The notes under the pieces are model-generated. The model saw nothing but the letters and a program-made list of their open reading frames with translations. It did no database searches and had not been told where the DNA came from. From positions 1-64,000 of the forward strand of contig DASYTI010000033.1 of assembly GCA_036002485.1 (NCBI GenBank): a stretch of 64,000 nt of DNA, written 5' to 3'. Origin of the DNA: Candidatus Methylomirabilota bacterium. Its GTDB lineage: Bacteria; Methylomirabilota; Methylomirabilia; Rokubacteriales; CSP1-6. The position numbers and the translations under genes were made by a program. Positions 2,484 to 28,705 of the stretch are shown piece by piece. Within the stretch, counting starts at the first letter, position 1. The number at the start of each line of letters is the position of its first letter.

Positions 2484-3945
2484 AGATCCGATAGCCGTCG
2501 CCCTCCACGGCCAGGCGGTAGTCGCCCTGAAGAACGCGCGCGGCGGCCGGCCAGGCGTCCAGCCGAGCATAGCCGGCGCGGCGCCACGTGTCGCGGAAGA
2601 TCACCACGGCCGCGGGCCGCCCCTCCTCGAGACCGTGCGCGAACTCGGCGCGAAGGGCCTGGATGCGCGGGTCTCCCTCGTCGTGAAAGAAATGGAAGTC
2701 GTAGAGGAAGCGCGTGGGCTGGCGAAGGTGCAGGCGCAGGAGCGCGTGAATTCCGCCCTCCGTCACATCCATTACCTGCACGGTTTCCCCCGGGACCACG
2801 AGCGGCTCGAGATCGCGCACCAGGGCCGAGACGCGCCGCTCCTTGGCGGCGATCCAGGGCGCATCGGCCGCGTCCACGCCCTTGACGCCCAGAAGAGCCA
2901 CGACGATCACGAGGAGGCCCAGGCTCGCCGCGCGCGACAGGCGCGGCGCGACGTCCCACCGACGCGGCGTCGCCGGAGAAGCGGGGGCCAGCGCCACGGA
3001 GCCAAGAGCGCAGAGAAAGACGGCCAGCGGATAGAGGTGATACTCCCACCCCTTGCCCTGGCTCGCGAAGTGCCAGCCGCCATACACCGCCCCCAGGACG
3101 GCGAGGGCGCGCCTGATCCCGTACGGCGCCGCGATGCGATACGCTGCGCCCACGAGGGTGAGGGCCACGAGGCAGGTCCAGATCTGCCAGCCATAGGCAT
3201 GCCCGCGCATCGTTTGCCAGATCGACTCTCCTCCTACGCGGCTGTAGAGCGGCAGAACATACTCCGTCGCGATGGCGGCGAAGGGCCCGAGCCCGCCGCG
3301 AATCGCGAGCCAGCCGAGGACCAGGGCGGGCGCCGCGAGCCCGGTGCCCATCCACACCGCCACCGCGGCGAATGTCGAGCGGCCCCCTCGACGCGAGCCC
3401 AGGAGCACGATGGGCGCGCAGGCGAGCCAGAAGCCCGCCACATGGGGCTTGATCGTCATACCGGCGCCCGCGGCGAGGCCGCCCCACACCAGCGGCGCGA
3501 GCGCTCCGCCCGTCTCCCAGCCGCGCGCCACGCCCCAGGCCGCGAGGACAAGGCAAAGGGCGAGCAGAAAATCGCGCTGGCCCACCCGCCACGCGCCCCC
3601 GGCGAGATGATAGAGAATGAAGAGCAGCGCGGCGCCCAGCCCGCTCCAGTCGTCGCCCATTCGCCGGCAGTATCCCCACAGCGCCACCGCCGTAGCGGCG
3701 AGCCAGCTGAGATCGAAGAGCCTCCAGGCCAGGCTCCCTTCGCCCAGCGTCTTGATCACGGCCAGATGGATCAGGTAGATGCCGGGCAGATTCATGTCGA
3801 AGACGTCGCGGTACGGCACGAGGCCCTGGGTGGTGAGCCAGGCGACATAGTGCATGAGGGGGGCGTCGTGGATGAGCGGCCAGCCCCGCGAGAGCCAGCC
3901 GAGATAGAGGGCAAGCCCGGCGCTAGCGGCCAAAATAGGCTTCAA
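2461..3945 (-). CDS. GT-C fold membrane glycosyltransferase (ArnT/PMT-like)
   Basis: About 494 residues with a dozen or so hydrophobic helices. The first luminal loop carries HDAPLMHYVAWL and then PYRDVFDMNLPGIYL, the acidic-residue arrangement of polyprenyl-phosphate-sugar dependent GT-C enzymes (families 39 and 83). A soluble C-terminal part with VTEGGIHALLRLHL and a FHDEGD segment follows. The start is TTG at 3945, overlapping the end of livG by 23 bases; the next in-frame Met is about 30 residues in and would remove the first helix. Expected role: moving a sugar from a lipid carrier to a protein, lipid or polysaccharide on the outer face of the inner membrane. Donor and acceptor are unknown. 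It sits between livG and the methyltransferase gene. Confidence 0.75.
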   Translation of the reverse strand: MKPILAASAGLALYLGWLSRGWPLIHDAPLMHYVAWLTTQGLVPYRDVFDMNLPGIYLIHLAVIKTLGEGSLAWRLFDLSWLAATAVALWGYCRRMGDDWSGLGAALLFILYHLAGGAWRVGQRDFLLALCLVLAAWGVARGWETGGALAPLVWGGLAAGAGMTIKPHVAGFWLACAPIVLLGSRRGGRSTFAAVAVWMGTGLAAPALVLGWLAIRGGLGPFAAIATEYVLPLYSRVGGESIWQTMRGHAYGWQIWTCLVALTLVGAAYRIAAPYGIRRALAVLGAVYGGWHFASQGKGWEYHLYPLAVFLCALGSVALAPASPATPRRWDVAPRLSRAASLGLLVIVVALLGVKGVDAADAPWIAAKERRVSALVRDLEPLVVPGETVQVMDVTEGGIHALLRLHLRQPTRFLYDFHFFHDEGDPRIQALRAEFAHGLEEGRPAAVVIFRDTWRRAGYARLDAWPAAARVLQGDYRLAVEGDGYRIYAQRVRS

Positions 3946-25296: not shown

Positions 25297-25387
25297 GCCA
25301 CTTTCCAAATGCGGCCTCGCGTGGACACCTTGCTCGGGTATATTTCACGGCGAGCGTCGATTCCCGGACTGCCCGGAGGTGACGAAC

Positions 25388-26629
25388 ATGACCCGATCGA
25401 CACGCGCCGACTTCGCGGGGAGCTGGAAAGAGATCGTCTCGTCGTTTCTCAAGCTCGGCGCGACCTCCTATGGAGGTCCCGCCATCATGGGCGTCATGCA
25501 GACGGAGCTGCAGCAAAAGCGACAGTGGGTGTCCAAGGAGCGGTTCGTCGAGGGACTCTCCGTGGTGAACATGCTGCCGGGGGCGACGGCCACCCAGCTG
25601 GGCATCTTCCTCGGCTACGCCCGTGGTGGCTGGTGGGGTGGGCTGGTCGGCGGGCTCTGCTTCGTCCTGCCCGCGTTCTTCGTCATGCTCCTGCTGACCA
25701 TTGCCTATGCCAGCCTTGAAGCGAGTCCCCTCTTGCGCGGCGCCCTCTACGGCCTGGGCCCCGTCGTCCTGGCCATCTTCGCGGTCGCCGTCTACCGGCT
25801 CGGGCGCACGGCCGCGAGCACCATTCCCCAGGTGATCATCGCCGTGCTGGCCGCCTTCGCCACCGTGGGAACTCCGCTGGGGATCGCGGCCATCCTGGCC
25901 CTCGCCGGCGGGGCCGGATTGCTGCTCTTCCACTCCAGAAGGCCGGCCGTCATCCTCGCCGTGTCATTGATCTGCGCGCTCGCCGTGGTCTCGGCGGCTG
26001 GTTGGTTGACTCCCGTTTCCGTAGGAGGTGTCTCGGGGACCATCCCGAAGCCGGACAGCCTCATGGATATCGCGACGTACTTCTTCACGGTGGGCGCCTT
26101 CACCGTGGGCGGCGGTTTGACGATGATCGCCTTCATCCAGGACCAGGTGGTCGGCCAGTTTCATTGGCTGACCCCGCGCGAGTTTATCGACGGCCTCGCC
26201 CTCGGCCAGTTCACGCCGGGACCGGTCCTGATGGTGGCCGCCTATGTCGGTTACAAGGTGGCGGGCGTCGCGGGAGCCACCGTGGCCGCCACCGCCGCCT
26301 TTCTCCCCTCCTTCATCCTCATGCTGGCCATTCTCCCCGCGCTCGATCGCGTCAGGACGCTGGCGTGGACGAGGGCGATGATGAAAGGCATGGGCCCCGC
26401 CGTCATCGGGCTCCTCGCGGTGTCTCTGCTCCGTCTTGCCCCGTACGCGCTCCCCGATCCGATGGCCATCGCCATCTTCGCTCTCACCCTCATCGTCTTG
26501 GCCCTTGGTCGGCTGGGTGCCTTCAAGGCCATGCTCGCCGGCGCTCTCCTTGGCGTGCTGCGGAGCCGCCTGTCTTCCATCCCCGGACTCAAGGCGGCCA
26601 CTCATCTGCTCATCTGGACGCGAATCTGA
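25388..26629 (+). CDS. chrA: Chromate transporter, ChrA (CHR family, fused double domain)
   Basis: 413 residues with about ten to twelve helices in two related halves. First half: FLKLGATSYGGPAIMGVMQ, VNMLPGATATQLGIFLGY. Second half: FFTVGAFTVGGGLTMIAFIQ, LALGQFTPGPVLMVAAYVGY. These GGP and PGP-type motifs mark the CHR superfamily. Likely exports chromate in exchange with or as mimic of sulfate; in many genomes other anions are substrates. Start 25388 has GGAGGTGA upstream; a GTG at 25379 is an alternative. Confidence 0.9.
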   Translation: MTRSTRADFAGSWKEIVSSFLKLGATSYGGPAIMGVMQTELQQKRQWVSKERFVEGLSVVNMLPGATATQLGIFLGYARGGWWGGLVGGLCFVLPAFFVMLLLTIAYASLEASPLLRGALYGLGPVVLAIFAVAVYRLGRTAASTIPQVIIAVLAAFATVGTPLGIAAILALAGGAGLLLFHSRRPAVILAVSLICALAVVSAAGWLTPVSVGGVSGTIPKPDSLMDIATYFFTVGAFTVGGGLTMIAFIQDQVVGQFHWLTPREFIDGLALGQFTPGPVLMVAAYVGYKVAGVAGATVAATAAFLPSFILMLAILPALDRVRTLAWTRAMMKGMGPAVIGLLAVSLLRLAPYALPDPMAIAIFALTLIVLALGRLGAFKAMLAGALLGVLRSRLSSIPGLKAATHLLIWTRI

Positions 26630-26656: not shown

Positions 26657-27964
26657 TCACCTCGCCGCGGTTCTGAATCCCGCGAAGATGTTTCGGCGGT
26701 GGTGCTTGTAGAAATTGCGCCAGGTGCTCCGGATCAGGCGCGAGCGGGTGGTCCAGCCCCCGCCCTTGAGCACCTTCTTCTGGCCGAAGTACGGCTGCGA
26801 GTACTCCTTGTAGGGATCGCAGACGTAGCCCGGATACGGCAGGAAGGTGTCCTCGACCCACTCCCAGGTGTTGCCGATCATCTGCCGGCACCCGGCCGCG
26901 CTGTCGCCGTCCGGCAGCGCACGCACGTCGATCGTCCCGCCCGCCCGGTAGTCGAGATTGGCGCGCTCGGGCGTGGGCGCCTCGTCGCCCCACGGGAAGC
27001 GCCGCTTGCCACCCGTGGCGGAATCGAGGGTGGCCGCCATCTCCCACTCCGCCTCGGTGGGCAGGCGCCGCCCGGCCCAGCGGCAATACGCTTCCGCCTC
27101 GTACCAGTTGACGTGGACGATCGGATGCCACGGCCCGAGCGGAACGGGGAGACCGAACTGGCACTCGTACCAGCGCCGGTCATCACCGCGGACCCAGAAC
27201 AGCGGGTGCTCGGCCTGCTCGCGGCGGCGCCAGTCCCAGCCTCGGCGTCCCCACAGCTCACGTCGGCGGTAGCCGTCGTCTTCGACGAATGCCTGGAACT
27301 CGGCGTTCGTCACCGGCGTCGAGGCGATGCGAAAGGGAGCCACCTCCACGGGATGGGCCCACTTCTCGTTGTCGAAGACAAAGGGCTCGTCCGGTCTCGC
27401 CCCGAGCATGAAGGTGCCTCCGGGCAGGTCGACGTCGCGAGGTCGGTAGGCCAAATCGATCGGCGGGGTCGCCCACTTCGGATCGAGGCGCGAGAGGGTG
27501 GGGCGCGGATAGCCGAGGGTCTGCCGCACCAGGGTCAGATTCTCCGCGTGCATGTCTTCGTGCAGCGCGGCCAGCGTGTAGACGTATGTCTCCTCGGGGC
27601 TCGGCTCGCGCGAGTCCAGCCGGCCCAGGGTGCGGCGGAGGATCTCGGCAATGTAGGCGAGGGTGGCAGGCCGGGACGGGAAGCGATGGTCCCAACGCCG
27701 GGTGTAGGACACGTTGAAAGAATCATAGATCCCGTCGGAGCCGGACAGGAGGGCCTGCGCGCCATCGAGGTGGCGCAAGATCCAGTACTCCTGAAACCAG
27801 CCCACGTGCCCGATCTCCCAGATCGGGGGCTCGACGAAATGCTGCCGGGCCCCCAGCATCTGAGCGTCCGTCAACCCCTCCGCCAGCTCGAGCTCGACGC
27901 TACGCGCGTCGAGAAGCATGCCGCGAAGAGCGTCAGCGGTCGGACGGGAGACGAATTCGGTCAC
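26657..27964 (-). CDS. EgtB/SenA-like non-haem iron C-S (or C-Se) bond-forming enzyme (DinB_2 + FGE domains)
   Basis: 435 residues. N-terminal DinB_2 domain carries the iron triad: H53 in WEIGHVGWFQEYW, and H135/H139 in LHEDMHAENL, positions close to His51, His134 and His138 of MtEgtB. C-terminal formylglycine-generating-enzyme-like domain (about 175-435): GGTFMLGARPDEPF, RRLPTEAEWEMAA, IGNTWEWVEDTF, KGGGWTTRSRLI and HRRNIFAGFRTA. EgtB joins cysteine sulfur to hercynine; SenA joins selenosugar to hercynine. The PPIWEIGHVGWFQEYW form is closer in my recall to SenA than the WHLAHTTWFFE of EgtB, but this is inference. No EgtD or SenB partner is nearby. Its ATG overlaps the stop of the rhodanese-CBS gene (ATGA), so the two are coupled. 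Confidence 0.75.
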   Translation of the reverse strand: MTEFVSRPTADALRGMLLDARSVELELAEGLTDAQMLGARQHFVEPPIWEIGHVGWFQEYWILRHLDGAQALLSGSDGIYDSFNVSYTRRWDHRFPSRPATLAYIAEILRRTLGRLDSREPSPEETYVYTLAALHEDMHAENLTLVRQTLGYPRPTLSRLDPKWATPPIDLAYRPRDVDLPGGTFMLGARPDEPFVFDNEKWAHPVEVAPFRIASTPVTNAEFQAFVEDDGYRRRELWGRRGWDWRRREQAEHPLFWVRGDDRRWYECQFGLPVPLGPWHPIVHVNWYEAEAYCRWAGRRLPTEAEWEMAATLDSATGGKRRFPWGDEAPTPERANLDYRAGGTIDVRALPDGDSAAGCRQMIGNTWEWVEDTFLPYPGYVCDPYKEYSQPYFGQKKVLKGGGWTTRSRLIRSTWRNFYKHHRRNIFAGFRTAAR

Positions 27965-28686
27965 GGGCGGGCCGATTCCCCGACGTGGCGCGCTCCGCCG
28001 GCGCCGCCCGGCCTCTGGCGAGCGAAGTCCTCGAGCGGCAAGAGCCCGATCAAGACGCCATCGGAAGTTGTCACGAGCGCGCGGGGAATCCGATGCTTGG
28101 TCAGGTAGTGAGGCAGCTCACCGGTTCGGAGATTCGGTCTGAAGGTGACGGGACCCGGGTCCATGACCTCCTCGACGGGGGTCGCGGGGTCGGCGCTCAG
28201 CGCCTCGGCGAGAACGAGGCCCAGCACGACTCGCTCCTGGTCGATGACGACGCACAGATCCCAGCCGCCCGCTCGCACGCGTTCCCCCAGGTCGCCCACG
28301 CGCTCATCGATCCGACATGTCGGGACGTCACGCCTCGCCGTATCCGCCACCCGCGGCGTGCGGGCTTCACGGCCCTCACGGGACAGGTCGGTGGCGAACC
28401 AGTCAGCCTTGCCGGCCTGGTAGCGGTGAACTTGCTTGAAGCCGAGGCTCGCGAGCCGCGACGCGGCCCGGGCGCTCAGATCTCACTGATAGTCCCAGCA
28501 GTAGACGATGACCGGGCGGTTGGGGTCGAGCGGCTGGACCGTCTTGCGACCGAGCATCCTCAGGGGAATGCTAATGGCCCCCGGAATATGCTCGGCCTCG
28601 TACTCCTTCGCGGGCATCACCTCGACGAGCTGCGCCCCCTGCTCAAGGAGCTTCCGAACTCCATCTCGATCGGTGATCGTTGCCAT
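27961..28686 (-). CDS. Rhodanese-CBS protein interrupted by in-frame TGA (candidate selenocysteine, or pseudogene)
   Basis: Reading from ATG 28686 (RBS GGGGAGGG), 67 residues of a rhodanese domain (IPGAISIPLRMLG, VIVYCWDYQ) end at TGA 28485-28483. The same phase resumes at once with DLSARAASRLASLGFKQVHR and GKADWFATDL, completing the domain, then about 130 residues of CBS-like repeat (RRDVPTCRIDERVGDL, EEVMDPGPVTF, HRIPRALVTTSDGVLIG). Relatives, as I recall them, have Cys where the TGA sits, so a single C-to-A change or a true Sec codon explains it. Total 241 residues with Sec at 68. Alternative: nonsense mutation leaving a separate CBS protein from GTG 28350. The stop overlaps the downstream EgtB/SenA-like gene, favouring one transcription unit. 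Confidence 0.6.
28452..28470 (-). other. Hairpin downstream of the in-frame TGA (SECIS-like candidate)
   Basis: In the mRNA, bases 16-23 after the start of the UGA pair with bases 27-34 (eight base pairs including one G-U), leaving a GUC triloop; more pairs continue below. The loop lies about 21 bases past the UGA and starts with G. Size and spacing fit the loose bacterial SECIS model (short stem-loop, G in the loop, tens of bases past UGA). GC-rich sequence forms hairpins easily, so alone this is weak. Confidence 0.35.
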
Positions 28687-28705
28687 GACCCTCCCCGATG
28701 ACGAG

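Follow-up and report, generated by a model that had tools for sequence, protein, structure and literature searches.

Is the TGA codon inside a rhodanese-CBS gene of this Rokubacterium the end of the protein, or is it read as selenocysteine (Sec)? The gene lies in the window, by which we mean the whole stretch of 64,000 nucleotides that was analysed, and an earlier note made from the letters of this stretch had proposed it as a candidate selenoprotein. This proposal is supported by the conservation of the TGA among orthologs, by a conserved SECIS element and by Sec machinery in the lineage. We regard the gene as a genuine selenoprotein gene in which UGA68 is read as Sec, and put the probability of this reading, which rests on sequence comparisons, at roughly 95%.

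A rhodanese-CBS frame with a single internal TGA

The gene and its parts were assigned as follows.

27961..28686, minus strand: predicted rhodanese-CBS selenoprotein gene, 241 codons plus stop with a single in-frame TGA, translated with TGA as U; Pfam PF00581 and PF00571; the orthologs are likewise open except for the same TGA
28689..28696, minus strand: ribosome binding site ggggaggg, 2 nt 5' of the ATG, read directly from the sequence
28393..28659, minus strand: rhodanese domain, residues 10-98, spanning the TGA; Pfam PF00581 (54.9 bits), AlphaFold2 model, nearest PDB match BH2092 (3nhv)
28498..28500, minus strand: TGC codon of the catalytic Cys63 in the rhodanese loop, from the alignment; TGA instead in 19 orthologs (double-Sec form)
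28483..28485, minus strand: TGA predicted to be read as selenocysteine, codon 68, at +5 from the catalytic Cys63; assigned on the basis of TGA here in 65 of 70 orthologs
28018..28353, minus strand: CBS pair (Bateman module), approximately residues 112-223; PF00571 (33.2 bits), profile match to PDB CBS pairs, fold search

The frame opens with the ATG at 28686 and, past the in-frame TGA, meets its next stop at the TGA in 27963-27961. Half a rhodanese domain before the TGA and its remainder with CBS repeats after it, over 241 codons, is what the earlier note had described, and both the frame and the Pfam matches bear this out. The motif that it had singled out, YCWDYQ-[TGA]-DLSARAASRL, is indeed found at 28485-28483 on the minus strand; with residue numbers it reads YC63WDYQ-U68-DLSARAASRL, which places U68 at the end of the active-site loop of the rhodanese domain. 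The PF00581 score exceeds the gathering score of 22.2 bits and Cys63 is invariant in our alignment A2, which together place the protein in the rhodanese superfamily. For the CBS pair, Pfam scores the second repeat alone (residues 171-223). An AlphaFold2 model (17 orthologs) has a mean pLDDT of 89, and in it the segments before and after the TGA together make up a complete rhodanese fold. BH2092, the nearest solved rhodanese in both fold and sequence comparisons, has a Cys at the Sec position (YCWGPAC). In the predicted product, Cys63 and Sec68 (CxxxxU) would both stand in the active-site loop of the rhodanese domain, with the CBS pair C-terminal to it. Two signals upstream of the ATG had also been proposed: the good ribosome site is present at 28696-28689, while the promoter-like pair, with a spacer that we count as ~19 nt, fails a standard sigma-70 scan.

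The TGA is conserved across phyla

We compared 70 distinct orthologs from Rokubacteria/Methylomirabilota, Acidobacteria, Chloroflexi, Thermomicrobia and Actinomycetota (at least five phyla, 38-62% identity), a total reached by also surveying the entire home phylum and the classes to which two Actinomycetota carriers belong. Codon 68 is TGA in 65 orthologs, TGC in three, TGT in one and TCC in one (i.e. 65 Sec, 4 Cys and 1 Ser), and the orthologs show no scattered stops. This number of orthologs with a TGA at the same codon excludes chance, and the simple point mutation that had been held up as an alternative is rejected, since the TGA is shared. In a scan of genome contigs, codon 68 was TGA in 13 of 14 close relatives (Acidobacteria, Chloroflexi, Thermomicrobiales, Actinomycetota and Rokubacteria) and TGC in one. 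Besides the window's own gene, the 57 genomes of the organism's taxonomic family contain three orthologs (G005, G022 and G006, 50-62% identical), all with TGA at codon 68. The same TGA occurs on complete plasmids of Pseudonocardia autotrophica, P. broussonetiae and Rubrobacter marinus. Since these come from isolates, a base-call error or an assembly artefact does not explain it.

The earlier note had placed the TGA at a conserved-Cys position beside the active-site Cys, which agrees with the Cys found there in 4 of the 70 orthologs and in BH2092. The relatives with Cys that it described do exist (YCYDYQCDLSARAA in L089), but they are a minority of four against 65 with TGA. In the tree, these Cys forms are scattered among the Sec forms (four changes for four rows), which suggests repeated Sec-Cys exchange at codon 68. 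Within Methylomirabilota the gene is present in only 4 of 95 genomes, and two Rokubacterial copies are placed in the tree beside Acidobacterial or Actinobacterial ones. Hence, the gene has likely spread between lineages.

A conserved hairpin follows the TGA

28452..28470, minus strand: predicted bacterial SECIS (bSECIS), 8-bp stem CGGGCCGC / GCGGCUCG with triloop GUC; stem kept in TGA orthologs, compensatory pair 21-29, freeze at silent sites, fit to the model in PMC13188914

The hairpin begins 12 nt past the UGA and its G-led triloop begins 21 nt past it. In most of the genes the sequence after the UGA follows the consensus GAY-NTG-AGY-CCN-CGR-GCC-GCG-NNN-CGG-CTC-G. Two pairings occur, depending on how the variable codon ends: an 8-bp stem of positions 16-23 with 27-34 and the loop GUG or GUC, and a 7-bp stem of positions 16-22 with 28-34 and a 5-nt loop whose second base is G. 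Published constraints for bSECIS elements are a loop of 3-9 nt, an upper stem of 4-16 bp, a G in the first two loop positions, a distance of 16-37 nt from the UGA and a minimum free energy of at most -7.5 (PMC13188914). The hairpin agrees with all of them: it has a 3-nt loop (5-nt in some genes), 7-8 bp, a G first or second, a distance of 21 nt and an energy of -23.6 kcal/mol for a 48-nt stretch.

A hairpin with a G-led loop about 21 bases past the UGA had been noticed from the window alone and is found at 28470-28452. Folded as a single sequence it is no better than its shuffles (z = -0.92), hence it is the comparison across species that makes it significant. At least seven of the eight stem pairs are present in 63 of the 65 TGA genes and in none of the five surveyed Cys/Ser genes, and at seven positions the pairs are kept in 64-65 of the 65 TGA genes, all of these being raw gene counts that include shared ancestry. 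At the four stem codons the top codon has a mean share of 98%, against 54% at the other conserved codons of 4-6-fold degeneracy in these genes (shared ancestry included). Arg73, for example, is encoded by CGA, which gives an A-U pair, in 72% of cases, against 13% of the Arg codons elsewhere. In L222, L223 and L238 the C-G of pair 21-29 is replaced by U-A, through a silent change of GCC to GCT together with an Arg to Gln replacement (CGG to CAG); in L190 the CAG occurs without the compensating GCT. The stem is broken in all five surveyed Cys/Ser forms and is kept in a Cys form from Nonomuraea (L242) found outside the 70-gene survey, which could be a recent conversion. The hairpin is an unusually clean natural case of a SECIS whose silent sites have stayed frozen in different phyla. 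In our proposed mechanism it would direct SelB with Sec-tRNA(Sec) to decode UGA68.

The 19 orthologs of the double-Sec form (YUHDGLUDMS) belong to a single Acidimicrobiia clade and have a second TGA in place of the catalytic Cys codon. These are the loci L211, L212, L214, L215, L217, L218, L220, L222, L224-L230 and L233-L236. The two TGA codons are 15 nt apart and a single hairpin, 36 and 21 nt away, could serve both; whether one hairpin acts on two UGAs so spaced is a testable question that this clade poses.

Selenocysteine machinery in the genome and its lineage

The source assembly is a draft (95.7% complete, 253 contigs), and family searches found neither SelB nor tRNA-Sec in it. A SelB-like match of 103.9 bits was rejected because a similar, IF-2-like match occurs in nearly every genome of the family; such matches cover positions 3 to ~225 in frames of mostly 820-900 aa. 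The tRNA-Sec candidates of the genome that were checked were all ordinary tRNAs. Of the sel genes that the earlier note had named for a search, selD is present, its product with Sec at the classical site (SYAACAG-U-ASKM; L165, G000:C51:43396-44334), whereas SelB and tRNA-Sec are absent from the draft, though in the family SelB exceeds the cut-off in 51 of 57 genomes and tRNA-Sec is found in 46 of 57. The congener G024 has selB, selA and selC together in a single block, and the DNA of this region matches contig G000:C193 of our assembly from base 84 on, beginning 1.4 kb beyond selC. Because contig C193 starts just beyond the sel cluster as laid out in G024, the absence of SelB and tRNA-Sec is probably due to an assembly break beside the cluster. 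The G024 block itself has no counterpart in our genome except tRNA-sized or short pieces, and its other flank lies mid-contig, so the argument from the contig break is one-sided.

SelB was also sought in 13 genomes that have a TGA ortholog. It exceeds the cut-off in 10 of them, and an eleventh, G067, has a match of 239.3 bits, just below the cut-off, spread along an 850-aa frame. SelB was not found in the other two (G066 and G069), both of which are small assemblies (2.8 and 1.5 Mb). The Cys-form genome G070 has no SelB over the cut-off.

Other in-frame TGA codons were seen in the organism and its relatives. The genome encodes a trypsin-like protease-rhodanese with an in-frame TGA after YCT (YCT-U-VDE, CxU) at L155 (G000:C112:1-4194), and CxU-type rhodaneses with an in-frame TGA occur in many genomes of the family (many of L023-L040, and L045). 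Rokubacteria thus appear to have several rhodanese selenoproteins. A second SelD of the genome is fused to an NADH-dehydrogenase-like domain (L173, 5290-7530). Together, the SelD with Sec and the YCT-U-VDE protein imply that the genome carries other genes needing UGA as Sec.

Alternative readings of the codon

A pseudogene, or a sequencing or assembly error that turned a Cys codon into TGA, would take a single TGC to TGA change and would not be at odds with a draft assembly without selB and selC. It has next to no chance of being correct, given that 65 of 70 orthologs share the TGA at codon 68, as do copies on complete isolate plasmids, that the frames are otherwise open and that the SECIS is conserved. 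The UGA might instead be decoded as another residue: an unusual tRNA-Cys(UCA) might read it, for example, or Trp or Cys might be inserted by read-through independent of SelB. selC was not found in the organism's own assembly and Cys is the alternative residue at codon 68, both of which would suit such decoding. Nevertheless, relatives in the family have an ordinary tRNA-Sec and SelB, the organism's own SelD has a classical Sec site, and the SECIS is frozen, is lost in 5 of 6 non-TGA forms and fits the SelB-type model, which makes decoding as a residue other than Sec very unlikely.

The gene could also yield two separate products, a short rhodanese half and a CBS protein. This is how it is annotated at NCBI in Pseudonocardia, where the public annotation of two cultured strains splits the gene at the TGA into 'rhodanese-like' and 'CBS domain' (L239 438-1103, L240 5977-6645), and a certain amount of short product is likely, as Sec insertion has to compete with termination. 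We give almost no credence to this reading: the UGA falls within the rhodanese fold, just past the catalytic Cys, the AlphaFold2 model shows this fold being completed, at high confidence, by the part downstream (from helix 70-80 on), and the conservation of the SECIS would be left unexplained. Recoding of the UGA, Cys/Sec exchange at the site, conservation of the SECIS and Sec machinery in the lineage are established by comparison between genomes, and we infer that the residue inserted in the cell is Sec.

Neighbourhood and possible function

26657..27964, minus strand: senA, selenoneine synthase; NF041186 454.9 bits (cut-off 420); its GTG start overlaps the stop of the predicted selenoprotein (GTGA)

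The senA product scores 326.1 against the EgtB model, under the EgtB cut-off of 360. The rhodanese-CBS gene is, from the overlap of the two frames, apparently translationally coupled to senA. Coupling to the next gene had been claimed earlier through an ATGA; the coupling stands, but the overlap is GTGA, with the GTG start at 27964. The other flanking genes that were typed are a chromate transporter and a sigma-54-type regulator; neither senB nor senC is among these typed neighbours. The chromate efflux transporter gene (window 25379-26629, plus strand) is convergent with senA, and a related chromate transporter gene is also found near the ortholog in L077 (6228-7448). No mer genes were found among the genes typed beside the window copy. 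Adjacency of senA and the rhodanese gene as a general rule was rejected, since among the ortholog loci examined it is seen in the window only.

The neighbours of orthologs include MerR, MerT, a Sec-containing MerP-like protein, MerB, MerA and the DF family (NF049942). A DF, MerA, MerB, MerT or HMA neighbour, mostly of the DF family, is present in the short flanks of 32 of the 70 orthologs. MerB lies beside the orthologs L082 and L240, and MerA beside L077 (569.5 bits, over the cut-off). MerP-like heavy-metal genes stand directly upstream of the rhodanese-CBS gene in L076 (2689-2901, plus strand, GMTUGAC) and in L171 (~3030-3254, minus strand, GMTUGTU, NF041115-like); with one or two in-frame TGA codons, they are likely selenoproteins in a mer-type operon. 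Metal-resistance selenoproteins are a recognised group (PMC13188914), and selenoneine was reported to demethylate methylmercury in zebrafish (PMC10665234). Taken with the mer and DF neighbours, this points to a possible role of the family in mercury/electrophile detoxification, to which we give a little less than an even chance. Cys63 and Sec68 might act as a redox or metal-binding pair, either by forming a selenenylsulfide or by capturing Hg or organomercurials with persulfide-type transfer, and the CBS pair might be a regulatory or nucleotide-sensing module. Given the coupling to senA and the demethylation of methylmercury by selenoneine, the local pair of selenoprotein and senA may serve the same detoxification end. 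A fuller scenario is tentative and, as a whole, rather doubtful: a family of mercury-detoxification selenoproteins, in which the Cys-Sec pair of the loop (Sec-Sec with a single SECIS in the Acidimicrobiia clade) would capture or transfer mercury or its ligands under CBS control, and whose member in this Rokubacterium would have been recruited beside selenoneine synthase into one detoxification operon.

The main rival for function accepts the Sec recoding and takes the protein for a selenium carrier, a Se-rhodanese delivering selenium to SenA for selenoneine synthesis, or for selenophosphate synthesis. Rhodanese folds can carry sulfane S or Se, and the overlap with senA in the window is what such a partnership would lead one to expect. 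Yet senA lies beside no other ortholog examined, whereas 32 of 70 orthologs have DF or mer-type neighbours, in some cases MerA, MerB or MerT. We therefore consider selenium trafficking improbable and mercury/electrophile detoxification the likelier of the two. The mer neighbourhoods and senA coupling suggest that some soil bacteria turn selenium, both protein-bound and small-molecule, against mercury. This idea is testable in cultured carriers (Pseudonocardia and Rubrobacter plasmids).

Comparison with known selenoproteins

A 2026 review lists 119 prokaryotic selenoprotein families, five of them rhodaneses (UxxS, UxxG, CxU, UxxG and UxxxxU) (PMC13188914). Rhodanese selenoproteins, including Sec at this loop position, are already known. 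The catalogue contains neither the rhodanese-CBS family nor its double-Sec form or mer-gene neighbourhoods, a literature search found no published rhodanese-CBS selenoprotein, and none of the NCBIfam selenoprotein models is passed by the window protein. The review also reports a Methylomirabilota MAG with 63 predicted selenoproteins (PMC13188914), and that study could already contain the rhodanese-CBS gene unnamed. What is added here is a widely distributed selenoprotein family with nearly always Sec over Cys, whose gene can be cut by genome annotation into two hypothetical genes, as seen in Pseudonocardia.

Among the known forms, rhodanese-like selenoprotein form 1 (PF00581, UxxS; WP_010941598.1; PMC13188914, Table 1) shares the U-x-x-S, here UDLS, a likeness by motif alone; it is listed with no CBS pair and occurs in other lineages and neighbourhoods. 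Sec likewise stands at +5 from the catalytic Cys in L100, a rhodanese from Thermodesulfobacteriota outside the rhodanese-CBS family (YCNGFK-U-SKS). TsoB (NF045694, UxxxxU; rhodanese/DsbD fusion-like) carries a pair of Sec residues at the same spacing of five as the 19 double-Sec orthologs, but it has another fusion partner, while the window protein has a single Sec and scores 29.1 bits against a cut-off of 805. Rhodanese form 3 (NF041203, CxU) shares the Sec in the active loop, and a CxU rhodanese is also present in this genome; its Sec is at +2, in contrast to +5 in the window protein, which scores 21.5 bits against a cut-off of 115. The nearest solved rhodanese, BH2092 of Bacillus halodurans (PDB 3nhv/3o3w), has Cys at the Sec position and differs in being a single domain without Sec. 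Finally, the NF041115 UxxU metal-binding protein and the NF049942 DF family are encoded directly beside orthologs, the NF041115-like gene with a TGA of its own; their folds are unrelated to rhodanese-CBS, which makes them partners of the family and not members.
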